Notes under the pieces: model-generated
Database searches by the model: none
The model's input: only the letters and a program-made list of their open reading frames with translations
What the model was told of the DNA's origin: nothing
From: a virus
Strand: one strand, 5' to 3'
DNA length: 48,930 bases
Virus record (IMG/VR): IMGVR_UViG_3300048997_000141
Location: 1 to 48,930 of that record
Shown here: one piece after another, positions 14,666 to 28,149 of the stretch
Layout of the letters: each line of letters begins with the position of its first letter
Position numbering within the stretch: position 1 is the first letter of the stretch
Translations under genes and position numbers: made by a program

Positions 14666-14695
14666 CTCGTTGTTGCAAACGAAAGGACCAGTCCA

Positions 14696-14845
14696 ATGTG
14701 GGTTAATTGCCAAGGCTCTATGCCTTTGTGCCTCGCGCCGTTCGCGCTTGTGTCGATCATGTATGCTGATGGATATGTATGGTTCGGCGCACCAGCGCAT
14801 GGTCCGAATTGGGCCAAGGTTGCGGCGTATCGGCTCGAAGATTGA
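14696..14845 (+). CDS. Small hydrophobic early protein
   Basis: The 49-residue product begins MWVNCQGSMPLCLAPFALVS and is Trp/Tyr/Ala rich (YVWFGAPAHGPNWAKVAAY). Its ATG is preceded by AAAGGACC with 6 nt spacing, the recurrent start element of this genome, which is the main reason to call it. It is the first gene of the early arm, where phages often place small host-takeover proteins. No family is recognised. Confidence 0.6.
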   Translation: MWVNCQGSMPLCLAPFALVSIMYADGYVWFGAPAHGPNWAKVAAYRLED

Positions 14846-14852
14846 CAAGCTC

Positions 14853-14873
14853 ATGTCGGGCGAGCCCCGACAT
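14853..14873 (+). promoter_or_regulatory. Leader hairpin upstream of the 147-residue early gene
   Basis: ATGTCGGG, CGAGC and CCCGACAT form an 8-bp perfect stem between the preceding stop codon and the AAAGGACC start element. TTGACA at 14842-14847 has no good -10 at 16-18 nt, so I read this as a leader RNA stem or operator rather than a promoter spacer. The next leader (16253-16268) holds a similar GTCGG/CCGAC stem. Confidence 0.4.
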
Positions 14874-14910
14874 CGGCGTGCCAATCACGGCGCGACAAAG
14901 GACCACTCAC

Positions 14911-15354
14911 ATGACCAACATCATCATCGGACTCGGCGCGGATCGCACCATCGAGGTGGATCGGGCCAAGTTCACCCCCGAAGTCGCAGAGCACATTTTC
15001 ATGTACGGGCTGCGTCAGATCCTCAACGACGCACACGCGTCCGAAAAGGACGGCGCGGCAAAGACCGCACTCAGCGAGAAGCGGCTCGCCAAGCTTTACG
15101 AGGGTCAAATCAATCGTGGCGGAAATGGGGCAAAGGCCTCGGCCGACCCCGTCGAAAAGGAAGCAACTCGCCTTGCAAAAGCCATAATCTCCAAAATCGA
15201 CAAATCCCGGCTTGAGGCTGCTGCGAAGCGCCGCGCGATCGAAGTTGACGATTTGAAGCTTGAACTGATCGCGGCGTATGCCGCGAAGCCAGAGACCATC
15301 GCGCAAGCTCGCGCCAACGTCTCGGCGATGAATGCGGTTGAGATCGAGCTCTAG
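14911..15354 (+). CDS. Early helical protein, unknown
   Basis: The 147-residue product starts after ACAAAGGACC plus 6 nt. It begins MTNIIIGLGADRTIEVDRAK and contains FMYGLRQILNDAHASEKD. A long Ala/Lys/Glu-rich helical half follows (EKEATRLAKAIISKIDKSRL). No family is recognised. It ends just before a strong terminator, so with the 49-residue gene it may form a short separate early transcript. High predicted expression (strong start site, own terminator) suggests an abundant DNA-binding or host-control protein; this is inference. Confidence 0.75.
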   Translation: MTNIIIGLGADRTIEVDRAKFTPEVAEHIFMYGLRQILNDAHASEKDGAAKTALSEKRLAKLYEGQINRGGNGAKASADPVEKEATRLAKAIISKIDKSRLEAAAKRRAIEVDDLKLELIAAYAAKPETIAQARANVSAMNAVEIEL

Positions 15355-15368
15355 CGGCAGAAAGCCGC

Positions 15369-15432
15369 GTGGCGAGTTAGATGTGGCTCGCCACCCACAC
15401 AAATTAGCCCCGGCAATCGTCCGGGGCTTTTT
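15369..15432 (+). terminator. Tandem hairpins ending in a rho-independent terminator
   Basis: A first stem, GTGGCGAG/CTCGCCAC (15369-15394), is followed by AGCCCCGG, a 7-nt loop, CCGGGGCT and TTTTT (15406-15432). The second is a textbook intrinsic terminator 52 bp after the stop of the 147-residue gene. Confidence 0.9.
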
Positions 15433-15891
15433 CATGGGCAAATGGCACCTCGTTATTTGTCCACCCACGGCGATCCGGGGGCCGCCCGCCACCACCATGG
15501 CCAAAACCGTAAATGCCCGCCACGTGCCAACGTCGACCGAAGCACCTAGCCCCCTCCGCTCGTACCGCTCCTCCGTATCCCTCGCAGCGGCCAAATGCCA
15601 AAATCGGCATGGCATGATATGGCTCTCGTTTTTTCGACGTGAGCCATATGTCTCTTTTCTCTCAATTCTCTCATTTTTTTTTTTTGGAGAAGAAACTACA
15701 CGAGGCCCTTTCGAGCCCAAAACACATGCCGATTTTCCAAAATGCCCAAATGTAGGGATACCTAGGCCGGGTATGAGGCCGGTTACTAGGCAGCCACTTA
15801 GGTCACCATGATTTGGCCACGTTTGCGGCCACATTTCGGTCATGTTCTTTTGGCAATATTAAATTGTTGCAACCAATTATGGAGCTTTCCC
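15433..15891. other. Non-coding region with T12 tract and inverted repeats, candidate origin or control region
   Basis: No convincing gene lies in these 459 bp. They hold a 12-T run (15674-15685), a 9-bp stem ATATGGCTC/GAGCCATAT (15617-15649) and the 12-bp inverted pair AAAATCGGCATG (15600-15611) and CATGCCGATTTT (15725-15736). Several CAAATG-type repeats and an AT-rich end around AATATTAAATTG (15856-15868) are also present. The mix of AT-rich DNA and repeats is unlike the GC-rich genes around it. A replication origin or regulator-binding region is inferred. Confidence 0.45.
15617..15649. repeat. 9-bp inverted repeat with T6 centre
   Basis: ATATGGCTC (15617-15625) and GAGCCATAT (15641-15649) are perfect inverted copies. 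The loop contains TCG, TTTTTT and CGA, which could extend the stem. It may be a hairpin, a regulator site or a weak terminator. Confidence 0.55.
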
Positions 15892-16221
15892 GTGCTTGAC
15901 ACTGAACTTTCCAGCCCTGCTGGCTTCGCGGCGACCGAAAACATCCTCGCCGCACAGGGAATGATCCACCGCTACGGGAATTTTGCTTGGAATTTTATCG
16001 ATAATCAACCGGGTGAGTTCAAATCGGACGATCTAAAACTGGCGCTTTGCAGCAATTTCATCCTCGCACCGTCGTCGGGCCAGGTTATTGCGTCGATACT
16101 GCTGCGGTATTTCTTGCATGTTGAATATGAGGGGCGGCGTTTGATGAAATATCCTCGTCGAATTTACAAGATGATCGGCACCCCTGCACATGACACGGCC
16201 GCACACGAAGAAAACGCTTGA
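15892..16221 (+). CDS. Early protein, unknown (GTG start)
   Basis: This 109-residue protein starts at GTG 15892 with GGAG 7 nt upstream. An ATG further up at 15808 has no ribosome site and would run through the AT-rich region. It contains AATENILAAQGMIHRYGNFAW, cited as a motif of residues 13-33 with the key part RYGNFAW, then LCSNFILAPSSGQVIASILL, and a basic end (RRLMKYPRRIYKMIG). The stop lies inside the next promoter's -35. The family is not recognised. Confidence 0.65.
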   Translation: MLDTELSSPAGFAATENILAAQGMIHRYGNFAWNFIDNQPGEFKSDDLKLALCSNFILAPSSGQVIASILLRYFLHVEYEGRRLMKYPRRIYKMIGTPAHDTAAHEENA

Positions 16222-16246
16222 CACCGGCGAAACGCCGGTCCACAAT
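16218..16246 (+). promoter_or_regulatory. Promoter with palindromic operator in the spacer
   Basis: TTGACA (16218-16223), 17 nt and CACAAT (16241-16246) form a promoter. The spacer holds a perfect 7-bp inverted repeat, ACCGGCG-AAA-CGCCGGT (16223-16239), where a repressor would block polymerase directly. Downstream, GTCGG/CCGAC (16253-16268) could form a leader stem before the AAAAGGACC start site at 16278. Confidence 0.55.
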
Positions 16247-16292
16247 CCCAACGTCGGCCACACCCGACACATTGTTTGAAAAGGACCAGCCC

Positions 16293-16484
16293 ATGACACG
16301 ATCTCAACAAGCCTTCAAAGCCTTATCTCCGGTTCGTGGCGCACTTCGCGGCTGGGCGTTCGCCCAGGACCCACACGGCTATGTGCGCCACGCCAAAACC
16401 GTGCGAGACACACTTCCCGCGCAATATCAACCGACAGCCGATGAAATGATCGGAGAGGTTGAGCGCATACTGGCAAATAAGTGA
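16293..16484 (+). CDS. Small early protein, unknown
   Basis: The 63-residue product starts after AAAAGGACC plus 5 nt. It reads MTRSQQAFKALSPVRGALRG then WAFAQDPHGYVRHAKTVRDT and ends IGEVERILANK; helical and basic. It is the first gene behind the palindrome-containing promoter, so it is probably regulated on its own. A hairpin follows its stop. No family is recognised. Confidence 0.62.
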   Translation: MTRSQQAFKALSPVRGALRGWAFAQDPHGYVRHAKTVRDTLPAQYQPTADEMIGEVERILANK

Positions 16485-16493
16485 CCCTTCGAC

Positions 16494-16514
16494 CAGGGGG
16501 CATCGCGCCCCCTG
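16494..16514 (+). terminator. GC-rich hairpin after the 63-residue gene
   Basis: CAGGGGGC, ATCGC and GCCCCCTG form an 8-bp stem 10 bp past the stop codon. No T-run follows, so it may stabilise the mRNA end or act as a factor-dependent pause rather than an intrinsic terminator. A second small stem (GAAGCG/CGCTTC) follows. Confidence 0.5.
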
Positions 16515-16626
16515 CACGAAGCGCCATCGCTTCACCACTGCCAGCAATGATTAACCCGCAGTCGCAGAGACGTAAGAGGTCGGGTAAGATCAGGATCGCA
16601 GTGCTTCTTCACAAAGGACCCCTACC

Positions 16627-16797
16627 ATGTGCCACCCTTACCCGCTCAGCACCATCTCCCACAAAATCCGCGTCGATTACGGGCTAAAGATGAACCTGGC
16701 CCGGCTTCGCAAGGCGGCCGAACTGACCGCCAAGGGTTACGACCCATCCACCGCGGCGTTCACCCTCGCTTCGCTCATTCAGCGCGGGGAAGTCTGA
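16627..16797 (+). CDS. Small early protein, unknown
   Basis: This 56-residue protein starts after CAAAGGACC plus 6 nt. It reads MCHPYPLSTISHKIRVDYGL then KMNLARLRKAAELTAKGYDP and ends ASLIQRGEV. The middle looks like a helix pair of a small DNA- or RNA-binding protein, but no family is recognised. Its stop overlaps the next start (TGATG), opening a run of five coupled small genes. Confidence 0.6.
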   Translation: MCHPYPLSTISHKIRVDYGLKMNLARLRKAAELTAKGYDPSTAAFTLASLIQRGEV

Positions 16798-16880
16798 TGG
16801 GCGACATCATCGAGCCAGTCGATCCCGACTTCGACGAAATCCACCCCGGCGACCTCCCGCACCCAGCAGGTGACCAATGA
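16797..16880 (+). CDS. 27-residue acidic peptide
   Basis: A short acidic frame (MGDIIEPVDPDFDEIHPGDL then PHPAGDQ) starts inside the previous stop and ends inside the next start (ATGA). It has no ribosome site of its own, so it would be translated by coupling. It is kept because it fills the gap exactly and reads as an acidic peptide. It might instead be only a spacer. Confidence 0.45.
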   Translation: MGDIIEPVDPDFDEIHPGDLPHPAGDQ

Positions 16881-17206
16881 CCCTACGCATCGGCACAGCC
16901 ATTATCGTGGAAGGCGAGGTGTCCCACGGGACCCTTCGCATCCAGGACCTGCTTCGTACCTTCGCGGCCGAACTTGAACGGCTATCACCAACAAACTGCG
17001 CCGCGATGGCCCGCGACATGCGAGCGCAAGCCGACATTATCGACTCAGGTGAATGGGGCTACATCAGCGAGGAGATTGGTGCCGAAGGCATCGTCGCAGC
17101 CGAGGATCACATCAACTACATCCTCGCCCAGCACGGCAGTCCCTACTACTTCGGCGCAAACGAAGGCGACGGCTCGTCAATCGGCTACTGGTCGCACAGC
17201 GAATGA
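16877..17206 (+). CDS. Early protein, unknown
   Basis: The 109-residue product starts MTLRIGTAIIVEGEVSHGTL. It contains LLRTFAAELERLSPTNCAAM, the acidic EEIGAEGIVAAEDHINYILA and a Tyr/Gly-rich end (GSPYYFGANEGDGSSIGYWS). The tail resembles small single-fold phage proteins but has no family I recognise. It is coupled by ATGA overlaps on both sides. Confidence 0.65.
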   Translation: MTLRIGTAIIVEGEVSHGTLRIQDLLRTFAAELERLSPTNCAAMARDMRAQADIIDSGEWGYISEEIGAEGIVAAEDHINYILAQHGSPYYFGANEGDGSSIGYWSHSE

Positions 17207-17328
17207 CCCACCAGTTCGCCCACATCGCCACTTTCTACCTCCACCGCACCGGCTTCACCAGCCGCGGCGTCACCTACGCGATGGCCAGCGCCTTTCCCCG
17301 ACCATCGGCCTACATCGATTTCAACTAG
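17203..17328 (+). CDS. 41-residue early peptide
   Basis: A short frame (MTHQFAHIATFYLHRTGFTS then RGVTYAMASAFPRPSAYIDF) starts in the previous stop (ATGA overlap). It is aromatic and basic. It is called only from coupling and plausible composition, and ends at the first of two 14-bp direct repeats. Confidence 0.42.
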   Translation: MTHQFAHIATFYLHRTGFTSRGVTYAMASAFPRPSAYIDFN

Positions 17329-17372
17329 AGCTCCGTCCACTGGGATTTGCCCCAACGCGAGCTCCGTCCACT
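17328..17372. repeat. Two 14-bp direct repeats
   Basis: GAGCTCCGTCCACT occurs at 17328-17341 and 17359-17372, 31 bp apart (three helical turns). It lies in the short gap between two early genes. Equal-phase spacing suits a protein-binding pair, or slippage-derived duplication. Confidence 0.7.
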
Positions 17373-17390
17373 ACAGCGAGGCAACCGAAC

Positions 17391-17606
17391 ATGCCAACCC
17401 TAGCTAAAAAGCATTTCAAAGCCATCGTCCGGGCGATGCAGGTTTCGCGGCCGATGCTTATCGCTCCGACTACCCCGGCTCGTGAGCGCAGGTACGAGTA
17501 TGTTCACGCTTATTGGAGCGACATAGTTATATCGATCGGCGACGCCCTCGAAAAGCTGGAACCAAAATTCAACAAGGAGAAATTCATCAATGCGTGCTAC
17601 AGCTAA
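17391..17606 (+). CDS. Small basic early protein, unknown
   Basis: The 71-residue product begins MPTLAKKHFKAIVRAMQVSR and contains YVHAYWSDIVISIGDALEKL. It ends with FNKEKFINACYS. The fold is helical with a basic first half. No strong ribosome site is seen, only GAGG 11 nt upstream. The next gene starts 17 bp inside its end. No family is recognised. Confidence 0.55.
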   Translation: MPTLAKKHFKAIVRAMQVSRPMLIAPTTPARERRYEYVHAYWSDIVISIGDALEKLEPKFNKEKFINACYS

Positions 17607-17697
17607 CATTATCGGCGACGGCCTCGCTCTCGCCACCATCCTCTTCGCCATCCTGACACTTTGCGCCATCGCGGCCGGGAACATCATTGTCCAGTGA
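17590..17697 (+). CDS. 35-residue single-span membrane peptide
   Basis: The frame (MRATANIIGDGLALATILFA then ILTLCAIAAGNIIVQ) is one hydrophobic helix with short ends. AAGGAG lies 10 nt before the ATG, which supports translation. Small inner-membrane peptides in early arms may interfere with host envelope functions; here that is only a possibility. Confidence 0.5.
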   Translation: MRATANIIGDGLALATILFAILTLCAIAAGNIIVQ

Positions 17698-17749
17698 GCT
17701 TTGGAACCAGCCGCCGCACAGCGGCTGTGTCGAGGACTCGGAGGGCACA

Positions 17750-18016
17750 ATGATTAGATGGCATAAACCAGGGCAAAAAGTAACGATGGTAGAGCCGCAT
17801 GTGTGGCCCACAGGTAGCCACGGAGCTCAAGCTGCGTTCGGCATTGTCTACACAATCAACAACTGCGTACTTTCACCACAGGGCAATCTCCATTTCAACC
17901 TCGCTGAGCTTCATAGGCTAGATAACTGGGGCGCTCGTTGGTTTCGCCCGGTCTACCCAAAACTTATCGAGGAACTCGCCACTATGGAAGTTCCCGTGCT
18001 GGAGCCAGCCGCGTGA
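17750..18016 (+). CDS. Small early protein, unknown
   Basis: The 88-residue product starts after GGAGGG with 4 nt spacing. It reads MIRWHKPGQKVTMVEPHVWP and then GIVYTINNCVLSPQGNLHFN. The end (LDNWGARWFRPVYPKLIEEL) matches small phage proteins with an SH3-like beta barrel start (KPGQKVTMVEPHVWP...GIVYTI). A nucleic-acid or protein-binding barrel is possible. It is coupled to the next gene by a GTGA overlap. Confidence 0.62.
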   Translation: MIRWHKPGQKVTMVEPHVWPTGSHGAQAAFGIVYTINNCVLSPQGNLHFNLAELHRLDNWGARWFRPVYPKLIEELATMEVPVLEPAA

Positions 18017-18348
18017 GCAACCTTGGCAAATATCACGATATCAAACAGATCCTCGACGCAGCTCTCGCGGGCGGCGGCGGAAAGGTCGAGTGTACAACCC
18101 CAGGCGCGGCCACGAAGTGGCGGCACAGGGCGTACGCCTTCCGCAAGGCATACCGCGAGGAGGGCGACGGCACATCCCCCTGGGACGGACTTACGTTGGT
18201 TCTGGATACCGATCCGGTCACCCGCAAAGCTACCTCGAAGGTGGTCCGCGTGGAGTTCGGCAGTGCCCATCGCGTCACCTTCACCCCCAACAGCGAGGCC
18301 GACCCATTCGGCGGCCAGCCCGATCCGGAAGACCTGCAACTGGACTAA
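18013..18348 (+). CDS. Early protein, unknown (GTG start)
   Basis: The 111-residue product starts at GTG 18013, overlapping the preceding TGA. It begins with SNLGKYHDIKQILDAALAGG and contains ATKWRHRAYAFRKAYRE, then LVLDTDPVTRKATSKVVRVE. The pattern (helix, then Arg/Lys-rich strand, then two hydrophobic strands) recurs in small alphaproteobacterial phage proteins of unknown role. It ends directly before a good promoter. Confidence 0.62.
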   Translation: MSNLGKYHDIKQILDAALAGGGGKVECTTPGAATKWRHRAYAFRKAYREEGDGTSPWDGLTLVLDTDPVTRKATSKVVRVEFGSAHRVTFTPNSEADPFGGQPDPEDLQLD

Positions 18349-18353
18349 CCGCA

Positions 18354-18382
18354 TTGACATTTGCGGTGATATATGGTTTAAT
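18354..18382 (+). promoter_or_regulatory. Early promoter with consensus -35
   Basis: TTGACA (18354-18359), 17 nt and TTTAAT (18377-18382) with TG upstream form the best sigma70-type promoter in the window. The -10 area reads ATATGGTTtaAT, shared with the first early promoter. The start element AAAGGATC and ATG 18404 follow at once. Confidence 0.7.
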
Positions 18383-18403
18383 ATAAGCGAAAGGATCAGC
18401 ACA

Positions 18404-18544
18404 ATGACCCACAACGAATATATTATAGTAGACGCAGGTTTTGTGCTACTGCGCTTTTGGGTTTCGACAGTAGCGGAGGCTCGTGCTCTCCGCGACCGCG
18501 ACTATCCTGGTATGGAACTTTTCGTGGCGATCGATGATGCGTGA
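18404..18544 (+). CDS. 46-residue early protein
   Basis: The product (MTHNEYIIVDAGFVLLRFWV then STVAEARALRDRDYPGMELF) starts after AAAGGATC, a one-base variant of the recurrent start element, with 6 nt spacing. It reads strand-helix-strand and is too short for a family call. It is the first gene behind a strong promoter, so probably expressed early and well. Confidence 0.6.
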   Translation: MTHNEYIIVDAGFVLLRFWVSTVAEARALRDRDYPGMELFVAIDDA

Positions 18545-18893
18545 CATCCCTCTCCCCGCCGGCTGCGCCAACATCTGGCTCACCGGCACGACGCTGTGGC
18601 TGGGCCTCCCCGGCCTCGGCCCGCAAGAGCAGGGCCACGCTCTGCATTTCTCCGCCGACACCTACGGCTTGCAGTGCGCTATGCTCGTGCTTCGCGAGCG
18701 GGCGAAAGCTGCCGGTCGTATCGGCACCCCCTCTGCACCAGTGCAAAGCACAGTCGATGCCATGGCACAGGCGCTGAAGCAGCGCCGCGACCCAGCAGTA
18801 TCGCTTGGCGCGAAGATCATCCGTAACGGCAAGGCTTACACCCAGGCAGAGATCGACGAGGCCGAAGATTTCCTCAAGGAGTTCGATCTATGA
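18534..18893 (+). CDS. Early protein, unknown
   Basis: This 119-residue protein has two possible adjacent starts (ATGATG at 18534 and 18537), overlapping the previous stop. It begins MMRDIPLPAGCANIWLTGTT then LWLGLPGLGPQEQGHALHFS, a beta-rich region. A helical end carries LKQRRDPAVSLGAKIIRNGK and EIDEAEDFLKEF. It has no family I recognise and is coupled by ATGA to the next gene. Confidence 0.62.
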   Translation: MMRDIPLPAGCANIWLTGTTLWLGLPGLGPQEQGHALHFSADTYGLQCAMLVLRERAKAAGRIGTPSAPVQSTVDAMAQALKQRRDPAVSLGAKIIRNGKAYTQAEIDEAEDFLKEFDL

Positions 18894-19129
18894 ACAACAC
18901 CTACGATCTCGACGCCCAGGTGGAGGTTGACTTTACCGCCAGCATCGAAGATGGCCCATTTGGTCGTAAAACCTACGCAACTAATCCCTTCGCCTGCACC
19001 CTCCGCATCGCAGGGAAAGAGTTCGACCTCTTCTCTCCGCAGTTTAGCCGAGCGGCGCTTCGCACCGCGATCCTAGATACACTCGACGCGGCTATGTCGG
19101 ACGACGCAGCGGCGGAGTTGGGCGAATGA
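18890..19129 (+). CDS. Small early beta-rich protein
   Basis: The 79-residue product starts after AAGGAG at 18877 (7-nt spacing). It reads MNNTYDLDAQVEVDFTASIE, then FACTLRIAGKEFDLFSPQFS and a C-terminal helix (AAMSDDAAAELGE). The two beta strands plus helix look like a small compact domain. The family is unknown. Confidence 0.6.
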   Translation: MNNTYDLDAQVEVDFTASIEDGPFGRKTYATNPFACTLRIAGKEFDLFSPQFSRAALRTAILDTLDAAMSDDAAAELGE

Positions 19130-19159
19130 CCCGTGCCCGTTCCACGAAGGAGCCCTCCC

Positions 19160-19426
19160 ATGGTGGATGATCGCGAGACGCGGGGCGGGAGTCTAACCTT
19201 GAGGCCGCGTTGCTCATGCGGACGACTTGTCAGAACTCACAACAACGACCGCCGGATTGGATGGTTTGCCTACGGGGAGCACGGCTCCGAGGAGGGGTGG
19301 GTTTGTCCACGCTGTGCTGAGATATGGACGCCAAGAGACGGTATGGGACGAGGGCCTGAAGCGGGCTATTGCGGCTTCATCACCCCCGCAGGCCGTGCCA
19401 CCCTCGAAGAGCGGAGAGAACCGTGA
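19160..19426 (+). CDS. Zinc-finger-like early protein
   Basis: The 88-residue product starts at ATG 19160 behind AGGAG (7-nt spacing); a GTG at 19133 lacks such a site. CSCGRLVRTH (about 18-27) and VCPRCAEIW (about 48-56) give a Cx1C and CxxC pair, a zinc-knuckle or ribbon pattern. The end holds GYCGFITPAGRA. It is one of several small Cys-rich early proteins here. It could bind DNA, RNA or a host protein. Confidence 0.65.
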   Translation: MVDDRETRGGSLTLRPRCSCGRLVRTHNNDRRIGWFAYGEHGSEEGWVCPRCAEIWTPRDGMGRGPEAGYCGFITPAGRATLEERREP

Positions 19427-19638
19427 GCGTCGATTATCCTTCCGCGCAGTGGTTCAATCCGCTACGTACATGCCGGGTGTGCGGCAAGCCGGCCGGAGAA
19501 CTGAGAAGCTTTCGAGACAACAGCGTGGTCGCCTTCATGTGTGAAAAGCACGCGAAAGCCGCGATCAGCGCCGCTCATCGAAAGATGCAGTTTGCACCCG
19601 ATGCATTTCTCCCCTCAGAGACGGAGGCCGATCAATGA
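19423..19638 (+). CDS. Zinc-ribbon-like early protein (GTG start)
   Basis: The 71-residue product starts at GTG 19423, overlapping the previous TGA. TCRVCGKPAGE and FMCEKHAKAA give CxxC plus CxxH, a small zinc-binding fold. The rest is helical. It is coupled to the next gene by ATGA. The metal-site call comes from residues seen; no specific family is recognised. Confidence 0.65.
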   Translation: MSVDYPSAQWFNPLRTCRVCGKPAGELRSFRDNSVVAFMCEKHAKAAISAAHRKMQFAPDAFLPSETEADQ

Positions 19639-20807
19639 CCAATTCCAATCCGACTGCACAGCCCGCGAGCGAGGGGCGCATTGAGCGTCTCGCTGGGCCG
19701 AGAACGCATATCTGCTGGACACCAGACGGTACTCCTTTGGAGAACCGCGTGTTGGTCAGTCTAGTTCGAGAAGGTGATCTTCACCGCCTTGAGACCGCCG
19801 CCCTGGCCCAGCCAGCCACGCAGGGGGCTGTAGCTAGTGCTCTTCATGAGCGAGCAGAACGCGGAGACGAACTTGCTGTCCCTGTTTGGCAAGCCCACCA
19901 GCCCGTGGCCGCGTCGAGCGATGTTGATCTAGTTCAGGATTATGGAGAGGCGCTGAGCACTAACGTCTACATTTATGCAAATGTTAATGAGTTTACTTCG
20001 AAGCGACGTGAAGCATCGGACGAGCAGGTAAGAAAAGCCCGCACCGCCCTTCTCGCGCGCCTCGCCTCCCGCCCCGCAACGCAGGCCAGCCCTACTGCTT
20101 GGATGCGCGGCGTTTATCAGCCTTCAACACCCAGCGGCCCTGCTGAGCACGATGTCGATCTTGTCTATGGCGACGATCAGCCCGAAGGCAAAGGATGGCT
20201 GCCTCTATATCGAGAGCCACCCGCAGCGCAGGCCAGCCCGGCACCATCGGACAGCAGCTATTTATTGTCCCTTGCTGTGCGGACAGCGGTATCGAGGTTC
20301 GTCCTAGACGATCACTATAATCCGGAAGAAAGTACTGAAGACGAGATAGGGCGTCTGGCAGACAACCTATTTCGCGACATCATCGCTGAGCTACATGGGC
20401 AGCAGGCCAGTCCAGCACCATCGGCGGGGGTGGATACGGGTGAAATCGAGAAGGATATCGCAGCTTTGATTTTTGAGTGCGTTAGTAAATTCGCCGACGC
20501 AGACGTAGAGGCGAAACGCGCCGACCTCCTCGCCACCATCTGCGCTGCCCTGGACGACAAGGCGGTGCCGGACGAACTGCGGAAGCTGAGCGAGGCGGCA
20601 ACACCCGCAGCCGCAACAGTCTGGCCGTCAACGCCAGAATACCTTCGTCAAGATGATCGAAACGGATGGGGCTTGTTCACGGATCATCATAGACGGCCGG
20701 GTGAAGCAAAAGAGAACGCCAAGTTTGCGGCCGGCTGCTGGAACTGGGTCCGCTCGCTCCTGTCCGCCCCGCCTCAGCCCGGCAGCAAGACGGAGGGGAA
20801 GTCGTGA
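19635..20807 (+). CDS. Mosaic early protein with repeated linkers
   Basis: The 390-residue product joins several short blocks by similar Ala/Pro/Gln linkers (LAQPATQGA, RPATQASPTA, AAQASPAPSD, QQASPAPSA). One block (DVDLVYGDDQPEGKGWLPLYREPP, residues about 173-196) ends in GWLPLY, the type of sequence seen in small phage DUF551-like proteins. Another (NGWGLFTDHHRRPGEA) precedes the end. It looks like a run of once separate small phage proteins strung together. Start GGAGG plus 8 nt. The role is unknown. Confidence 0.65.
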   Translation: MTNSNPTAQPASEGRIERLAGPRTHICWTPDGTPLENRVLVSLVREGDLHRLETAALAQPATQGAVASALHERAERGDELAVPVWQAHQPVAASSDVDLVQDYGEALSTNVYIYANVNEFTSKRREASDEQVRKARTALLARLASRPATQASPTAWMRGVYQPSTPSGPAEHDVDLVYGDDQPEGKGWLPLYREPPAAQASPAPSDSSYLLSLAVRTAVSRFVLDDHYNPEESTEDEIGRLADNLFRDIIAELHGQQASPAPSAGVDTGEIEKDIAALIFECVSKFADADVEAKRADLLATICAALDDKAVPDELRKLSEAATPAAATVWPSTPEYLRQDDRNGWGLFTDHHRRPGEAKENAKFAAGCWNWVRSLLSAPPQPGSKTEGKS

Positions 20808-21669: not shown

Positions 21670-23105
21670 CCGCCCCCGATCTCACCGCGCCAGAGGATGT
21701 GGAGCGTGTCGCGCGGGCGATTTACTTCGCTAAGCACACGATCATGCACGACCACGAAAAGCTATGGTCAAAGACCAAACAACTTCAGGGTAAGGTTTGG
21801 GAAGAGATCGCTCTTGCCGCCATCGCCGCCCTTCAGCCCACCATCACCGCCGCGCGTGAGGCCGGACGACGGGAGGAGCGTGAGGCGTGTGCGCTTATCT
21901 GCGACGGCTATGGTCGCGAAGGCGAATGGGTCGCAAAGGCTTACGAGGCCGAGACGGCTGATGAACTAGCCGCTCGTATCCGCGCCCGAGCAGCCGCGCT
22001 GCCGGCGATGGGCGAAGGTTCCTCAAGCCAGGAAGGGGGCAAACATGTTGCAGGAATTGACCAAGGGATTTCTATGGGGAACAGCGGCAGCTGCGATGGC
22101 GGTTTCGCTAGGCGTATTTCTGATGAACGTGCTGTAACCCCGACCGCCTCTGAGCAATCCGGGGCGGCCGGACCCTCCGCTAAAGGTGAGGCCGCCCGTT
22201 GGGTCACCTTGGCAGAGAGAACACGTAAAGCTTTTGAGGCAACCCCCGAGCCAGTGCAGGCGGATGCGGGGGAAGTGCTGCGCGAATTTGAGTGGTCAGG
22301 CCGGAATTACGATATTCACGGCAACAGGAGTGTTCCCTGTTGCCCTATCTGTAAAGGGGAATATCCCGAATATAAAGGACTGTCCGGCGGAGGTCTATTA
22401 GGACATTCAACCAAGTGCCGCCTCGCCGCCGCCCTCCAGCCAGTGCGGGCGGATGCGGTGGCGCTTGGCGTCAAAATCGATCAAGCAAGAACAAATCCGC
22501 ATTGGTCGGGGACGGCCTCGTTCGGTTTCGAGGAATGGGAGATGATCGCCGCCGCCCTCCGCCACACCACCAGCCCCGGCGCGGATGCCGAGGACGGAGG
22601 GTGGTTACGCTGTGCTGTAAGCGGCCCTGACCATGATGAATCTGGTCACATGCTGGTAACTGTGCAAGACGGAACCTATGACGGCGCCCGCGTATCAGTT
22701 CACCAGGACCTTATCCGGCGAGACCTTATTCCGGAAGACCGTGCGGATGCCGAGATTGCAAGGCTTACATCTCTGGTTGGAATGGCAAGGCAGGCTGTAT
22801 CGATTACCGAAGCCAGTGCTTCCGTCAAGGATGCCGAGATTACAGCGCTGAAGGCTGAGGTGGAGCGGGTGAAAAGGATCTACAGCTTCGGCAACATGAC
22901 GTTCGACGCTTTGGTCAAAGAACGGGATGGCTTGAAGCACAGCACCACCGATCTCGCGGCCAAGCTCGCGGCTGCTGAAGCGGCGATGGACGAAGCCCTA
23001 GCCTACCTCGATCAGGCAAGCTCTTACCCATCAATGACTTCTTGTAAGTCTGGTGCTGCGCGCCTCCGCTCCGTCCTGGCTTCAATTCGAGGAGGTGAGG
23101 CGTGA
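21666..23105 (+). CDS. Large mosaic early protein with coiled-coil end
   Basis: The 479-residue product has three parts. Residues 1-120 hold APEDVERVARAIYFAKHT and AREAGRREEREACALICDGY, a block common in small phage proteins. Residues about 120-190 are low complexity and unlike a folded domain. Residues 200-350 hold CCPICKGEYPEYKG with an ENxxH-like GHSTKC zinc site. Residues 350-479 are coiled coil (SLVGMARQAV, ITALKAEVERVK). A small membrane peptide gene sits in the middle linker in another frame. It may be an old gene fusion. The function is unknown. Confidence 0.65.
   Translation: MTAPDLTAPEDVERVARAIYFAKHTIMHDHEKLWSKTKQLQGKVWEEIALAAIAALQPTITAAREAGRREEREACALICDGYGREGEWVAKAYEAETADELAARIRARAAALPAMGEGSSSQEGGKHVAGIDQGISMGNSGSCDGGFARRISDERAVTPTASEQSGAAGPSAKGEAARWVTLAERTRKAFEATPEPVQADAGEVLREFEWSGRNYDIHGNRSVPCCPICKGEYPEYKGLSGGGLLGHSTKCRLAAALQPVRADAVALGVKIDQARTNPHWSGTASFGFEEWEMIAAALRHTTSPGADAEDGGWLRCAVSGPDHDESGHMLVTVQDGTYDGARVSVHQDLIRRDLIPEDRADAEIARLTSLVGMARQAVSITEASASVKDAEITALKAEVERVKRIYSFGNMTFDALVKERDGLKHSTTDLAAKLAAAEAAMDEALAYLDQASSYPSMTSCKSGAARLRSVLASIRGGEA
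22045..22137 (+). CDS. Nested 30-residue membrane peptide
   Basis: A +1-frame reading inside the mosaic gene (MLQELTKGFLWGTAAAAMAV then SLGVFLMNVL) is one amphipathic start plus a transmembrane helix. GGAAGGGGG lies just upstream of the ATG. The host gene is low complexity over exactly this stretch, as expected if the nested frame is the selected one. Confidence 0.45.
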   Translation: MLQELTKGFLWGTAAAAMAVSLGVFLMNVL

Positions 23106-23329
23106 GTAAAATCAAGTTAGGAAGAGCGCAGGAAGAACTTCTGCATCTACTTGCTTCGGGTGAGCGAACCGACATCACAGACGAATCGATTGTCCGCGCC
23201 CTCGAAAGAAAAGGATTGGCAGAACGCCACGTTGATCGGCATGGCCACCTCGCCAATCGCCATTCATGGCGCATCACGCCGGCCGGCCGTTCCGCCCTCT
23301 CCGCCAGCACGAGTGCGACAGATGTCTGA
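23102..23329 (+). CDS. Small winged-helix-like early protein (GTG start)
   Basis: The 75-residue product has one of the strongest ribosome sites here (GGAGGTGA). KLGRAQEELLHLLASGERTD then SIVRALERKGLAERHVDRHG and WRITPAGRSAL give helix-helix-helix-wing order, as in small phage and MarR-like winged helices. TPAGRxAL is a frequent winged-helix end. A DNA-binding regulator is likely but the target is unknown. Confidence 0.68.
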   Translation: MSKIKLGRAQEELLHLLASGERTDITDESIVRALERKGLAERHVDRHGHLANRHSWRITPAGRSALSASTSATDV

Positions 23330-23492
23330 GCTTCGCTACCTAGCTGTTCTCGGAAGCAGCGCTCTAGCGTTCGGAGGATGTATCGCTATGTGGTTTACGC
23401 ACTCTGCGGCTGCCGGCGCTTCATGCACACTCGGACTGCTCTCGCTTACGATAAGTATCGCGTATGTGCGGGAAGGCCACCCCGATGTCTGA
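23322..23492 (+). CDS. Two-span small membrane protein
   Basis: The 56-residue product (MSELRYLAVLGSSALAFGGC, then IAMWFTHSAAAGASCTLGLL and SLTISIAYVREGHPDV) has two hydrophobic segments around a short loop. It overlaps the previous stop by 8 bp and is translated by coupling. Small membrane proteins recur in this arm (also at 17590 and 22045). Confidence 0.55.
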   Translation: MSELRYLAVLGSSALAFGGCIAMWFTHSAAAGASCTLGLLSLTISIAYVREGHPDV

Positions 23493-23534
23493 ATTAGCGT
23501 ATCTGGCATGGCCGATTAGCGGGAGCCGCGCGAC

Positions 23535-23879
23535 ATGACCAGCTTACCCTGGACCGACGACGAGATCGCCATCCTCCGCAAAGCCTGTCACCATCGCAGC
23601 TATTTCACAGTTGGGCGTCTTCTCGGCCTAACCCGTTCTTACTCCGCCGTTAAGACAATGGTGTTCCAGCTTAACCTCCGCAAGTCAATTCCGATAAAAC
23701 ACGTTCGTATCCGACTAATGCCAAAGGACCACGATTATGTCGAACAGCAGCGCGGCCGACTCACCCGCTCCGACTTTTTCCGCAAACTCATCCGAGATCA
23801 TCGAAGCCGAAACCTTCAAGTACGTCCGCCAGCACACAAAACTGATGGCTCTATCGACCGGCCGCTGGGCAATTCTTGA
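23535..23879 (+). CDS. DNA-binding-like protein: SANT/Myb-like start plus ribbon-helix-helix-like segment
   Basis: The 114-residue product begins MTSLPWTDDEIAILRKACHH, a SANT/Myb-like DNA-binding helix start. RSYSAVKTMVFQLNLRKS, a recognition-helix-like stretch, follows. A later part (HVRIRLMPKDHDYVEQQRGR then LTRSDFFRKLIRDHRSRN) has strand-helix-helix order as in ribbon-helix-helix proteins. The last 143 bp overlap the next gene in a second frame, and both readings look real. A small transcription regulator or origin binder is inferred. Confidence 0.6.
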   Translation: MTSLPWTDDEIAILRKACHHRSYFTVGRLLGLTRSYSAVKTMVFQLNLRKSIPIKHVRIRLMPKDHDYVEQQRGRLTRSDFFRKLIRDHRSRNLQVRPPAHKTDGSIDRPLGNS

Positions 23880-24018
23880 CGCCAAGTTCCAGCTCATAAC
23901 TATTGTCAACCGCCCTTCGGACTATCAGCCGCTTGCCAACCTCGAAAGTGTGTTTGCATCGCTGCCGCGGGCGCTGAAGCTGGATATGGCCGAACTGCTA
24001 AAGGAGCTAGACCTGTGA
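23737..24018 (+). CDS. Small early protein, unknown
   Basis: The 93-residue product starts behind CAAAGGACC plus 6 nt, inside the previous gene. It begins Ser/Ala/Pro-rich and then FKYVRQHTKLMALSTGRWAI, LDAKFQLITIVNRPSDYQPL. It ends with a helix (LDMAELLKELDL). The start element makes translation likely despite the overlap. Its stop overlaps the helicase start (GTGA), so the two are probably co-translated. Confidence 0.65.
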   Translation: MSNSSAADSPAPTFSANSSEIIEAETFKYVRQHTKLMALSTGRWAILDAKFQLITIVNRPSDYQPLANLESVFASLPRALKLDMAELLKELDL

Positions 24019-25469
24019 CCCCTACCGCCGAACAGCAAGCAATTGTCGATTTCGCCAAAACCCGTCAGGAGAACCTCCTAATCTCCGCCCTCGCCGGCGC
24101 AGCCAAAACCACCACCCTCGAACTTATCTGCAAGAAGGTCAACTCCATTCCGATCCTTTCGGTGGCCTTCAACAAAAAGATCGCCGACGAGATGAAAACC
24201 CGTCTCCCCGGCCACGTCGAGTCGAAGACCATGAACGGCCTCGGCCACAGCGTCTGGGGCCATAAGACTGGCCAACGTCTCGTCATCGACATGAAGAAGT
24301 CCTACAACCTGCTCCGCGCCGAGATCGACGCCCTCGGCCGGGGCGATAAACAGGCAGCATTCGCCGATTTCGCCGACACCCTGAAAATGATCAGCCGGGC
24401 GAAGCTCTCCGGCTACATCCCCGACGGCGCCTGGGCCGAGGCCGATCACCTGCTCACCCGGGAAGAGTTCGAGGATAGCTTCGAAGACCCCCCAGCTTCG
24501 CTTCAGCTCCGCCTTACCGACAAGGTCCTTAACGCCAGCATCGCGGCCGCCTATAACGGAGCCATCGACTTCGATGACCAAATTTACATGCCCACACTGT
24601 TCGGCGGAACTTTCCCTCGCTTCCCTCTCGTACTCGTGGATGAAGCTCAAGACCTCTCCCCTCTCAATCACGCCATGCTACGTCGACTTGTCTCACGACG
24701 AGTTATTGCTGTCGGTGATCCGTGGCAATCAATATACGGCTTTCGGGGAGCCGTTAGTAATGGAATGGAGGCACTTCGTACCAGTTTCGGTATGTCCGAG
24801 TTGCCGCTTAACATTAGTTTTCGGTGTCCCCAAGCTGTTGTTCGTCGGGCCTGGTTCCGAGTCCCCGACATGCGGTGGCCGGATTGGGCGGCTCAGGGCT
24901 CGGTGGAAGAACTGGACATCTGGGGGCCGCGAACTATCCCTGACGGCGCGGCTATTATTTGCCGGAACAATGCTCCTCTTTTCCGTTGCGCTCTGGCGCT
25001 CATCCGATCTGGGCGCGGTGTTAGCGTTGTTGGTAGGGATGTTGGCCCTTCTCTCGTAAAGGTGCTAAAGTCGCTCGGCTCCCCGACCACCGGCCGCGAA
25101 GACGTGCTGAAGCTGATCGATCAATGGCTGCAGTCCACGCTGCGGAAGAACAAAGGAAAGGCCTCGACCTATGACCGCGCCGAATGTCTACGTGTCTTTG
25201 CCGGAACAGCTAACGATCTGGCAGGAGCGATCGCTTATGCAGAGGACCTCTTTAAACGAGAGGGGCCGATCCAGTTGCTTAGTGGCCATAAATCCAAAGG
25301 GCTTGAATGGGACACTGTCTTTCATCTTGATCCATTCCGCGTCCCTTCGCCTTGGGCCAAAGAAGCGGAAGAAATCTCCCAGGAACTGAACATCCGCTAC
25401 GTCATCCTCACCCGGGCGAAGCAGCGGTATGTAGAGATTAACATGGACGATTTCGATCCAGTGACATAA
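24015..25469 (+). CDS. UvrD/Rep-like superfamily 1 helicase
   Basis: The 484-residue product shows the SF1 motifs in order. Motif I is SALAGAAKTTTL (about 24-35), with Ala in place of the usual Gly before Lys. Motif II is LVDEAQDLS (207-215), motif III AVGDPWQSIYGFRG (232-245), then LSGHKSKGLEWDTV and motif VI YVILTRAKQRYVEI (about 463-476). It should translocate on single-stranded DNA and unwind it, using ATP. GTG start behind AAGGAG, overlapping the previous stop. It opens the replication module. A 161-residue reading in another frame inside it is probably not real. Confidence 0.9.
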   Translation: MTPTAEQQAIVDFAKTRQENLLISALAGAAKTTTLELICKKVNSIPILSVAFNKKIADEMKTRLPGHVESKTMNGLGHSVWGHKTGQRLVIDMKKSYNLLRAEIDALGRGDKQAAFADFADTLKMISRAKLSGYIPDGAWAEADHLLTREEFEDSFEDPPASLQLRLTDKVLNASIAAAYNGAIDFDDQIYMPTLFGGTFPRFPLVLVDEAQDLSPLNHAMLRRLVSRRVIAVGDPWQSIYGFRGAVSNGMEALRTSFGMSELPLNISFRCPQAVVRRAWFRVPDMRWPDWAAQGSVEELDIWGPRTIPDGAAIICRNNAPLFRCALALIRSGRGVSVVGRDVGPSLVKVLKSLGSPTTGREDVLKLIDQWLQSTLRKNKGKASTYDRAECLRVFAGTANDLAGAIAYAEDLFKREGPIQLLSGHKSKGLEWDTVFHLDPFRVPSPWAKEAEEISQELNIRYVILTRAKQRYVEINMDDFDPVT

Positions 25470-25481
25470 GGCTTTCGTCCT

Positions 25482-25546
25482 TTGGACGTGATATGGTTCG
25501 GGCCTGCACGTCTCGCTTGACAATCGCCCGGTCTTATGCGTATATG
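25482..25546 (+). promoter_or_regulatory. Early promoter region of the 184-residue gene
   Basis: TTGACA (25517-25522), 18 nt and TATATG (25541-25546) form a promoter. Upstream, TTGGACGTGA (25482-25491) merges into GATATGGTTC (25490-25499). Both also occur at the first early promoter (14636-14645 and 14653-14662). The shared pair suggests a common regulator site. Confidence 0.5.
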
Positions 25547-25588
25547 TCCGAACGGTCACAAAGGACCGCCACACAAGGAGCCACCCCC

Positions 25589-26143
25589 ATGCAATTGACC
25601 ATCGCCGGCAAGACCTTTCAGGTTGAGCCCAAGTACGAAGCCGGCCACTCGCTCAGCGAGAACGAGGCTAACGCTCTCAACCAGCTGCGCTACGAGAACC
25701 TCCGCAATAACTTCGCGGGCAAGGTCAAGGCGGGCGCAGAGGCCGGCATCGATGACGATACCCTCCAGAGCCAGCTGGCCGATTACGCCAACAGCTACGA
25801 GTTCGGCGCCCGTGCAGTCCGCTCTGCTGTCATCGCCGATCCGGTTCTCAACGAGGCGATCAAGATCGTCAAGGAGAAGCTGATGGCGGCGGCCAAGGCC
25901 AAGGGCTACAAGCCGGCGGAAGTCCGCGAGGAACTGGCCGAGAAAGCCGAATCCTTCATCGCCTCCCGCGACACGAACGAGAAAGCCCAGCGCATCTGGG
26001 AACTGGCGCAGGAGCGCGTCAGCCAGAAGGCGTCCATCGCGTCCGACGATCTCGGGGATATGCTCGGCGAGCGCCCTGCTTCGCAGGAGGCCCCGGCCAA
26101 GAAGGCCCGCAAGAGCAAGGGCGAACAGCACGCTTCAGCCTAA
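25589..26143 (+). CDS. Conserved phage protein near replication genes
   Basis: The 184-residue product starts MQLTIAGKTFQVEPKYEAGH then SLSENEANALNQLRYENLRN. Middle parts are DDDTLQSQLADYANSYEFGA and KEKLMAAAKAKGYKPAEVRE, with a Lys/Ala-rich tail. Proteins with this opening (GKTFxVxPxYxxGHxLxxxEAxALNQ) recur near replication genes of podoviruses, function unknown. AAGGAG lies 8 nt upstream, behind an AAAGGACC copy. Own promoter and downstream hairpins suggest high expression, as for a DNA-binding or structural accessory protein. Confidence 0.75.
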   Translation: MQLTIAGKTFQVEPKYEAGHSLSENEANALNQLRYENLRNNFAGKVKAGAEAGIDDDTLQSQLADYANSYEFGARAVRSAVIADPVLNEAIKIVKEKLMAAAKAKGYKPAEVREELAEKAESFIASRDTNEKAQRIWELAQERVSQKASIASDDLGDMLGERPASQEAPAKKARKSKGEQHASA

Positions 26144-26152
26144 CGAGTTCCC

Positions 26153-26219
26153 CTCCCCGCTTTGTTGGTCCTTTGTCGGGGAGTGGTGGCGGGGCGACTA
26201 TCCACGTAGTCGCCCCGCC
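26153..26219 (+). terminator. Two strong hairpins after the 184-residue gene
   Basis: CTCCCCG/CGGGGAG (26153-26183) is followed by a perfect 13-bp stem GGCGGGGCGACTA/TAGTCGCCCCGCC around a 6-nt loop (26188-26219). No T-run follows, so termination may be partial. The first loop holds TTGGTCCTTTGT, the reverse complement of the AAAGGACC start element. Confidence 0.7.
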
Positions 26220-26246
26220 TGACCTTCGGACCACCCAAGGACCACA

Positions 26247-26459
26247 ATGAAATACCTCGAACTCTGGTATCAAGCGATGGCCGCACAGTTCGGGATTGTG
26301 GTCGAGACCAGCCGGCCGCAGCTATTTATCCAGAAGCTTTACGCCGCCCGCCGGGGGTCAATGGACCCCGCCCTCGCCAACCTCAGCATCGTCCAGTCCC
26401 CGCTCGTCGTGGGCGAGGTGTGGATTTTGAAGCGCAAGGAGCCGACCAGTGAAGCGTGA
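26247..26459 (+). CDS. Small early protein, unknown
   Basis: The 70-residue product starts after CAAGGACC plus 3 nt (the closest spacing of the element). It reads MKYLELWYQAMAAQFGIVVE then TSRPQLFIQKLYAARRGSMD and SLIVQSPL-type strand end. Helix-rich with a basic middle. The family is unknown. Confidence 0.6.
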   Translation: MKYLELWYQAMAAQFGIVVETSRPQLFIQKLYAARRGSMDPALANLSIVQSPLVVGEVWILKRKEPTSEA

Positions 26460-26622
26460 ACTTCCAAAGCCGAAGACAAACGCTGAATCTGGCTGCCTCT
26501 ACTGTGACACACTAGGGCCAAATAGTTGTTTGACGCCTGAGCAGGCTCAAGCTTGTCGCGATAAATGTGCGCGCGAGTTTAAGATTGCACTACGACGCGC
26601 GGAGGCTCATCGTGAAGCGTGA
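26449..26622 (+). CDS. Small Cys-rich protein (GTG start)
   Basis: The 57-residue product starts at GTG 26449 behind AAGGAG (8-nt spacing). SGCLYCDTLG and then NSCLT, ACRDKCARE give CxxC plus three more Cys, a probable zinc site. The end is a basic helix (FKIALRRAEAHREA). It overlaps both neighbours. It may be a small nucleic-acid binder. Confidence 0.55.
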   Translation: MKRELPKPKTNAESGCLYCDTLGPNSCLTPEQAQACRDKCAREFKIALRRAEAHREA

Positions 26623-26806
26623 AGAAATCCCCATCGAGAAGATCACCCTGAACCTGTTCGAGGGGGACTACGCATTTCTCCGGAACTGGTACAGCACTCG
26701 CGTCGGCGCGGGCAAAATCATTCGCGAGCTTGTCCGCGCCAAGCGATTGCAGCTGGAAGCGGAACTTGAGCGCCGAGCCCCTATCATGAAAGGACCAGAT
26801 CTATGA
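26612..26806 (+). CDS. Ribbon-helix-helix-like small protein (GTG start)
   Basis: The 64-residue product starts at GTG 26612 (GAGG, 6-nt spacing). IEKITLNLFEGDYAFLRNWY then STRVGAGKIIRELVRAKRLQ gives one strand and two helices, the order in ribbon-helix-helix DNA-binding dimers. It is similar in style to the C-terminal part of the 23535 protein. The function is inferred from fold only. Confidence 0.6.
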   Translation: MKREEIPIEKITLNLFEGDYAFLRNWYSTRVGAGKIIRELVRAKRLQLEAELERRAPIMKGPDL

Positions 26807-26991
26807 GCGAAGAATGGCACGGCCGACAAATTCTCACTTATCGCGAGTACACTCCGATCCCTGATCGCCGATGGGACTGGTATGCCTACCTTGAGGGCAG
26901 CGACGAAGAGACCGGTCTTCGCGGCTGGGGTCGCACCGAGCAGGAGGCCATCAACGACCTGATTTCTGAACTGGAGGCCGACGATGAGTGA
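26803..26991 (+). CDS. Small early protein, unknown
   Basis: The 62-residue product starts behind AAAGGACC plus 6 nt and overlaps the previous stop. It reads MSEEWHGRQILTYREYTPIP, then DRRWDWYAYLEGSDEETGLR and a helix (EQEAINDLISELEADDE). Trp-rich strands plus a helix, a common small phage fold. The family is unknown. Confidence 0.62.
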   Translation: MSEEWHGRQILTYREYTPIPDRRWDWYAYLEGSDEETGLRGWGRTEQEAINDLISELEADDE

Positions 26992-27190
26992 CCTCCAGGA
27001 ACTCTTCTCCCGCGACCCTCTAAAGTTGACCCGCGAAGACACCGACCAGATCATCGAGTACTACCGCGCCCAGCGCGTCAACTTCAAGAAGGTTGAGAAA
27101 GAGGGCAAAGTCCCGAAAGCGCCGAAAGCGGTAAAGCCGGAAAAACCGAGCGGCCCCCTGAACATGGACGCGCTCCTCGATGACATCTGA
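26984..27190 (+). CDS. Small early protein with Lys/Pro linker
   Basis: The 68-residue product begins MSDLQELFSRDPLKLTREDT then DQIIEYYRAQRVNFKKVEKE. A Lys/Pro linker and a short hydrophobic end (GPLNMDALLDDI) follow. The helical start with RDPLxLTxEDxxxIIxxYR is frequent in phage proteins next to nucleases of the PD-(D/E)XK type. The peptide-like tail may dock a partner, perhaps the nuclease encoded next. Confidence 0.65.
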   Translation: MSDLQELFSRDPLKLTREDTDQIIEYYRAQRVNFKKVEKEGKVPKAPKAVKPEKPSGPLNMDALLDDI

Positions 27191-27201
27191 AAGGACCAGC
27201 C

Positions 27202-28149
27202 ATGACCGACTCGCCTTTCCTCCCCGGCACCAAGGTGCAATACGCTTGGGACTCGACGTCCCTCGGCCTCTATAAAGAGTGCCCGCGGAAATATTACTAT
27301 CAGATGATCCTGGGCTATCGGCCGAAGTCGCTCGGCGGTAGCCCCCACCTGCGGTTCGGCCAGATCTACCATTCAGCCCTCGAAAGTTATGATCGCTACC
27401 GAGTGCAAGGTCGATCGCACGACGATGCTCTTAGCTTTGCTGTGCTTAATGCTATGATGGATAGCTGGGACTATCATGACGATAAACCGTCTGGCCCCTG
27501 GGTCTCCGACCATTCTTTGAAAAATCGCGAGTTCCTTATCCGTTCCATCATCTGGTATCTCGAGGAGTTCGCGGACGATGCAGCGCATACTGTCATCCTT
27601 GCGAACGGTAAGCCTGCGGTGGAACTCAGTTTTCGAATGGAGCTTGATAGCGATATTATGCTGTGCGGTCATCTGGACCGTGTGGTCGAGTTTGCGGGCG
27701 ATACCTATGTGATGGATCGGAAGACCACCACGACCACGCTGTCGCAGCGCTACTTCGACCAGTACAACCCTGACAACCAGATGTCGCTTTACACTGTCGC
27801 GGCCAAGGTCATCTACAACACCCCGGTCAAGGGCGTCATCATTGATGCCGCGCAGATCGCCGTCGGCTTTACCCGCTTCAGCCGGGGCTTCACCTTCCGC
27901 ACGGAGGGGCAGATTGAGGAGTGGCTTGCAGCTACAAAGGGCTGGATTGTTGAAGCACAAGAACGAGCTGATGGCAGCGCACGCAATATCTTGGACCCGC
28001 TTGTATGGTGGCCCCAAAACGAAAAAGCCTGTGGCAACTACGGCGGCTGCCCTTTCCGTTCTGTCTGCTCCCGCGATCCCCGAGTCCGGCAAAACTTTCT
28101 TGAAAGCAACTTTGAGGTAAACCCATGGAACCCCTTGGCGGCTCGCTAA
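27202..28149 (+). CDS. PD-(D/E)XK nuclease, RecB/Cas4-like with Cys cluster
   Basis: The 315-residue product has Cys27 (KECPRKYYY) and a C-terminal trio, C277, C283 and C289 (CGNYGGCPFRSVC). Together they form the four-Cys iron-sulphur site of Cas4/AddB-type nucleases. Active-site residues are H57 (IYHSAL), E141 in AVELSF, D159 in GHLDRVV, D172 and K174 in VMDRKT. It should resect or process DNA ends. It starts behind AAAGGACC (4-nt spacing). With the Sak4-like gene it forms a recombination pair. Confidence 0.88.
   Translation: MTDSPFLPGTKVQYAWDSTSLGLYKECPRKYYYQMILGYRPKSLGGSPHLRFGQIYHSALESYDRYRVQGRSHDDALSFAVLNAMMDSWDYHDDKPSGPWVSDHSLKNREFLIRSIIWYLEEFADDAAHTVILANGKPAVELSFRMELDSDIMLCGHLDRVVEFAGDTYVMDRKTTTTTLSQRYFDQYNPDNQMSLYTVAAKVIYNTPVKGVIIDAAQIAVGFTRFSRGFTFRTEGQIEEWLAATKGWIVEAQERADGSARNILDPLVWWPQNEKACGNYGGCPFRSVCSRDPRVRQNFLESNFEVNPWNPLAAR

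Follow-up and report, generated by a model that had tools for sequence, protein, structure and literature searches.

A phage hairpin loop complementary to an extended ribosome-binding site shared by about ten genes: a candidate antisense RNA with a phage-specific address

Introduction

Antisense RNAs directed at ribosome-binding sites (RBSs) are known from phages and from bacteria. The c4 antisense RNA of phages P1 and P7 is phage-encoded, and its loops pair with the RBS of a phage messenger RNA (mRNA), which blocks translation (PMC12197685). In Staphylococcus, the UCCC-loop RNAs (RNAIII and the Rsa RNAs) use unpaired C-rich loops to pair with the Shine-Dalgarno (SD) sequences of many mRNAs (PMC3861533). 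Here we describe a related arrangement in a soil phage, represented by a linear virus record of 48,930 bases (IMG/VR record IMGVR_UViG_3300048997_000141, taken at its full length and called the window below), in which an extended start element, AAAGGACCA, precedes a set of genes, and the loop of a hairpin directly 3' of the gene starting at 25589 carries its complement. In our reading of the sequence, AAAGGACCA is probably an address for an antisense RNA that the phage itself encodes and that would cover the ribosome sites of this gene set. Genes are named by their first position.

Results

The repeated start element

The window has leftward structural genes up to 14.6 kb and beyond 35.8 kb; from 14.7 to 35.8 kb its genes run rightwards. 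A sequence-only reading had reported a recurrent start element in the rightward part, and the counts bear this out: AAAGGACC is found nine times without mismatch when both strands are counted, where dinucleotide shuffles lead one to expect 1.24 (none of the 100 shuffles reaches nine), the longer form AAAGGACCA has seven copies against 0.22, and a control pattern read backwards has 0 copies in the window. Seven of the eight exact plus-strand copies of AAAGGACC lie 4-6 nucleotides (nt) ahead of an ATG (Table 1). The eighth is the further copy that had been noticed upstream of 25589, and it is located in the leader of that gene, upstream of its SD. One-base variants, AAAGGATC at 18390 and CAAGGACC at 26236, also stand ahead of starts. 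The gaps from CC to ATG are 6, 6, 5, 6, 6 (here TC), 6, 6 and 4 nt, with 3 nt at 26247, and CC follows AAAGGA at 7 of the 9 well-placed ATG starts of the window. The GGA that had been taken for the ribosome site is too short: the part of the element predicted to pair with the ribosome is AAAGGA, and the conserved part reaches AAAGGACCA.

The element had also been taken to mark the entry cistrons of early units, mostly genes with a gap in front, and to be missing from ATGA-coupled genes. The second point fails at 26803, where the start and the stop of 26612-26806 overlap in ATGA, and the first is only partly true, since 26803 is coupled and 23737 starts inside the frame 23535-23879. The gap in front of 27202 is just 11 nt.

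A candidate antisense hairpin after gene 25589

On the minus strand, AAAGGACC occurs just once in the window, and this copy, absent from the sequence-only reading, proved decisive. It lies at 26167-26174 (26166-26174 as a 9-mer), between genes 25589 and 26247, which are 103 nt apart. There, 22 nt past the stop of 25589-26143, a hairpin has the loop UGGUCCUUU, which complements the start element exactly. The predicted fold of 26140-26260 has z = -4.1, and none of 200 shuffles folds as well. The marked start sites can form 8-12 contiguous pairs with the loop, G-U pairs included, and that of 14911-15354 is an 11-nt contiguous complement. Nearly all of the best duplex energies among leaders belong to marked genes, the best of all (-20.9) being that of the 25589 leader. 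Rfam 15 gave no family match for the element at the gathering score.

Loops and start sites in related phages

The relatives compared are metagenomic contigs, with the exception of Caulobacter phage Kuura (L269), and the window itself had no megablast match among the cultured phages of INPHARED. Start elements of relatives differ from that of the window (GGAGTCAG, ACGGAGTCA, GGAGTCTA, GGAGTCCA and AAAGGAGACCA). Four contigs with extended start sites of their own, AACGGAGTC in G401, GGAGTCAG in G411, GGAGACCA in G417 and GGAGTCCA in G426, each carry an antisense copy of their own site in a hairpin loop. In all eight phages first mapped, such hairpins lie just 3' of the ortholog of either 29199 or 25589; the latter position is used in the window, G417, L061 and G428, and the former in most others. 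Across 18 elements the anti-RBS stretch lies 0-60 nt past the stop codon and is unpaired with a probability of 0.52-0.99, and in most of these phages it can form at least 8 contiguous pairs with several candidate targets. Several relatives have a second strong stem after the element. An antisense GGAGTCAG in G435 was left out, as it lies in a palindrome.

The change of loop and start site together is seen most directly where the stem is common. G401, G423 and L025 share a stem with loops TTGACTCCGT or TAGACTCCGT, their start sites being GGAGTCA or GGAGTCTA accordingly (on the shared stem G401 reads TTGACTCC and G423 TAGACTCC), and in all three phages the ortholog of 14911-15354 has its own phage's motif. 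The exonuclease gene (27202) is likewise preceded by AAAGGACCA in the window, by GGAGACCAA in G417 and L061, by GGAGTCAG in G411 and L011, and by GGAGTCAA in L026; in a matrix of duplex energies, the RBSs of these orthologs pair best with the loop of their own phage, or with one almost identical to it, in five of the six cases. Within the stems themselves there is little covariation: a MAFFT alignment of eight elements gives 11 pairs, 4 of them with double changes, an energy of -5.86 and a covariation term of -0.11. Unequal loop lengths probably account for this, and stem covariation is not counted as support.

Statistics of the match

Loop-to-RBS matching was sampled in 120 bases around the stops of the 25589 and 29199 orthologs, giving 100 regions from 61 non-redundant contigs, with start sites called mechanically and small counts per phage. 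The commonest complementary RBS 8-mer reached at least 5 copies in the own phage for 6 of 100 regions, compared with 10 of 6000 pairings with other phages, and reassignment of regions to phages gave a mean of 0.26 and a maximum of 3 in 2000 permutations. With self-antisense copies removed, at least 4 copies were found for 8 of 100 regions 3' of 25589 and 29199, and in no case for the 3' sides of all other orthologous genes. Seen from the start sites, eight phages have an RBS 8-mer with at least 5 copies, and for six of these a complement with at least 5 copies is present at one or other of the two sites; in L078 the complement overlaps in part and has 3 copies, and in G421 there is none.

Where a loop contains GACTCC, the pair of bases ahead of it predicts which two follow GGAGTC in the start sites of that phage. 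For loop NNGACTCC and RBS GGAGTCNN, 37 of 91 sites match against 9.1 expected (p = 5e-5; 0 of 20,000 permutations as high), in a set picked after examples had been seen. The analysis was repeated independently on new contigs collected via gene 28256, with earlier duplicates dropped and a fixed rule for reading the loop. In this small set, 9 of 20 start sites agree with the prediction where 1.55 would be expected (p = 0.00135), and with a three-base extension 6 do so where the expectation is 0.63 (p = 0.0008). The loop of L318 predicts GGAGTCGAA, which has 7 copies in its own record and 0-2 in 17 other records.

Two other scores were tried and rejected. The sum of all 8-nt complementarities at the two sites (877 own, 721.6 expected) was dropped because false start codons diluted the signal, and was replaced by the largest single-8-mer count. 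A scan of all hairpins in all contigs returned many chance loops with counts of 3-4, as well as trivial reverse-strand hairpins of start sites.

Discussion

Proposed mechanism

As read from the sequence, the object under study has two parts, an address that extends the ribosome site and an antisense hairpin loop, which appear to co-diverge across a phage family, and pairing between the predicted loops and start sites is strongly supported by their covariation. The hairpin at 26153-26183 would present UGGUCCUUU in its loop, which would pair with AAAGGACCA at the ribosome sites of some ten genes of the phage and with the copy in the 25589 leader. This would stop binding of 30S subunits and lead to a joint turn-down of the marked genes once the 25589 transcript accumulates. 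AAAGGA would be enough for the host ribosome, and the extra CC(A) would provide specificity, directing the loop to the phage's own mRNAs. The sequence-only reading had offered a phage regulator or selection at the level of the ribosome for these bases; a regulator is retained, in the form of an RNA loop able to pair with the full length of the element, and a protein or a ribosome preference is not.

A complementarity between loop and SD that is maintained through change points to direct RNA-RNA pairing at ribosome sites, and from c4 RNA and RNAIII we infer translational repression. The hairpin RNA would be made and processed, probably from a 3' untranslated region (3'-UTR) as a small RNA, and would act in trans, after expression of the first genes. 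Self-regulation is suggested by AAAGGACC in the 25589 leader, and by AGGAGTCAG in G411, which precedes a frame running into the hairpin. There is about an even chance that the family as a whole has a private address system, in which RBS extension and matching 3'-UTR loop drift together and each phage would hold an orthogonal code for its own genes, avoiding host mRNAs and other phages, and the transcript from which the RNA derives would be subject to feedback.

Several observations weigh against an antisense role, besides the choice after the fact of the set with 37 matches. In the window, the element occupies the rarer of the two spots, the gene downstream of it could be a cis target, and neither a sigma-70-like promoter nor a canonical terminator was found at it. 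Most relatives have no recognised element, and no matching loop was found for the extended start sites of G421 (AAAGGAAA) and G430 (TTGGAGAGA). The GGAGTCACC sites predicted from L014 were not seen in the remainder of that contig, and for the exonuclease RBS of G411 the loop of L011 is a slightly better partner than G411's own, the two having CTGACTCC in common.

Alternative explanations

The plainest alternative is a ribosome-binding habit of the host, or C/A-rich spacers, with a CC that has no partner. In Kuura, five start sites read AAGGACC and are followed by C-rich spacers, and in several relatives SD sites are followed by C/A-rich spacers. However, among 385 alphaproteobacterial genomes AAAGGACCN(4-6)ATG occurs at most 24 times per 4.6 Mb, compared with 7 times in 49 kb of the window, a density that none of them approaches, and a host habit was rejected on this ground. 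The motif is also low in Reyranella and the Rhodospirillales genomes with the nearest terminase, the closest cellular terminases being those of Reyranella and other alphaproteobacteria. The sequence-only reading had named an equal frequency before host genes as grounds for dropping the element; these genomes show nothing of the kind, an exclusion that reaches as far as the alphaproteobacteria sampled and is not complete. The same reading would have counted a loss of the CC in relatives against the element. CC does follow AAAGGA before ATG at only 6 of 217 sites in relatives (80 loci sharing the helicase), as opposed to 7 of 9 in the window, but this misleads, as other phage-specific bases stand there and fit the phage's own loop; relatives whose different extensions are equally strong have matching loops at fixed spots. 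A host or spacer habit is on this evidence distinctly unlikely. Also improbable, to a slightly greater degree, is an attenuator acting only in cis, whose loop would pair with the RBS of the next gene, the other copies being unrelated. AAGGACCA does precede 26247, 62 nt past the loop, and in G417 the next gene (27279) has a matching RBS as well, but no such match between the loop and the start of the following gene exists in G411, G413, G426, G409, G401 or G423, and matching sites are scattered over up to about 11 kb. Cis action alone is disfavoured because the downstream gene often lacks a match that distant genes have.

The hairpin could instead serve as a decoy or sponge for a second RNA, or for a protein, which binds the start sites too, or its effect could be activation and not repression, as the direction of an effect is not given by sequence. 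Such a role is unlikely, though less so than the preceding alternatives: loop and start site are reverse-complementary and offer no common protein site in the same sense, and pairing over an SD normally blocks initiation, as for c4 RNA and RNAIII. The least credible explanation is that the hairpin merely ends the 25589 unit and its loop is accidental. Loop-poor hairpins of terminator type do stand at these spots in many relatives, but the permutation and site controls, including the independent repeat, speak against chance.

If an antisense role is correct, its interest lies in where control is exerted. The timing of phage gene expression is usually ascribed to promoters, sigma factors and polymerases, and here one RNA loop appears to define a regulon at ribosome sites. 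The code can be read from sequence alone and varies between relatives, and it would account for the retention of bases beyond the SD core. It could also serve as a predictor for like systems in uncultured phages, and its members would be natural orthogonal loop/RBS pairs for translational control.

Features of the window and further observations

Table 1. Start elements, hairpins and associated genes in the window
Feature	Sequence	Position	Strand	Remark
Start element	AAAGGACCA	14682..14690	+	RBS of gene 14696-14845 (49 amino acids, aa)
Start element	AAAGGACCA	14897..14905	+	RBS of gene 14911-15354 (147 aa)
Start element	AAAGGACCA	16280..16288	+	RBS of gene 16293-16484
Start element	AAAGGACC	16613..16620	+	RBS of gene 16627-16797
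Start element	AAAGGATCA	18390..18398	+	RBS of gene 18404-18544; a G-U pair would preserve loop pairing
Start element	AAAGGACCA	23723..23731	+	RBS of gene 23737-24018, within open reading frame (ORF) 23535-23879
Start element	AAAGGACC	25560..25567	+	Leader of 25589, upstream of its own SD; not its SD
Start element	AAGGACCA	26237..26244	+	RBS of gene 26247-26459, directly 3' of H1/H2
Start element	AAAGGACCA	26789..26797	+	RBS of gene 26803-26991 (ATGA-coupled)
Start element	AAAGGACCA	27190..27198	+	RBS of exonuclease gene 27202-28149
Anti-RBS loop sequence	TGGTCCTTT	26166..26174	+	Exact complement of AAAGGACCA; P(unpaired) 0.78
Hairpin H1	CTCCCCG stem, 17-nt apical loop CTTTGTTGGTCCTTTGT, CGGGGAG stem	26153..26183	+	Loop unpaired in RNAfold
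Hairpin H2		26188..26219	+	Perfect 14-bp stem; terminator-like, without T-run
Gene 25589		25589..26143	+	184 aa, directly upstream of H1; one of two genes with a 3' element in relatives
Gene 29199		29199..29642	+	Ortholog of the other gene with a 3' element in relatives; here only an ordinary tetraloop hairpin 3'

The ORF 23535-23879 (114 aa) overlaps the 23737 start in another frame and has no Pfam match; if it is coding, the RBS of 23737 would fall within coding sequence. In gaps upstream of marked genes, ATATGGTT occurs three times on the plus strand (14654, 18371 and 25491), preceded in two cases by GGACGTGA (14638 and 25484, +), and both may be part of a shared promoter. A strong GC hairpin, CAGGGGGCATCGCGCCCCCTG, lies at 16493-16513 between genes 16293 and 16627, with no T-run. 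Gene 29199 adjoins the gene for a Sak4-like annealing protein, and its product, which has no family match, may be a single-strand binding protein. Elsewhere in the window, 29682-30926 encodes a DNA methyltransferase with a fused ParB-like N-terminus. At 31785-32843 a uracil-DNA-glycosylase domain and a 3'-5' exonuclease domain are fused; the polymerase gene is a separate one, starting at 33157. No transfer RNA (tRNA) was found in the window. In L091 (record G430), a candidate tRNA-like stretch stands 3' of the 25589 ortholog, where other relatives have the hairpin. Kuura has a gene-poor region at 35321-35800 with several strong hairpins and palindromes (ACCCATATGGGT and TTCCATATGGAA). One loop of a large intergenic hairpin of this phage holds GGGTCCTT, the complement of its AAGGACC(C) sites, a weak lead only, as duplex energies are not specific.

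Comparison with known antisense RNAs

No description of such a system of loops and RBS addresses was found in the papers searched. What the window has in common with c4 RNA is a loop complementary to the ribosome-binding site of phage mRNA. However, c4 has a single target (ant) in the same transcript and serves immunity, whereas about ten genes over 12.5 kb are marked here, no ant or immunity gene was recognised in the window, and the shared extended RBS address changes together with the loop between phages. As in the UCCC-loop RNAs, the unpaired loops hold UCC opposite the SD GGA of several mRNAs; those RNAs come from bacterial chromosomes and act on the SD core in general, whereas specificity here would come from bases outside it that covary with the targets. 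The position directly after a stop codon, and the second strong stem of several relatives, recall small RNAs derived from 3'-UTRs, although in the window no canonical terminator was found at the candidate element, whose second stem (H2) lacks a T-run. Phage antisense RNA is a known kind of regulator, c4 and the UCCC-loop RNAs being the closest parallels to the arrangement described here, which would be a variant of that kind.

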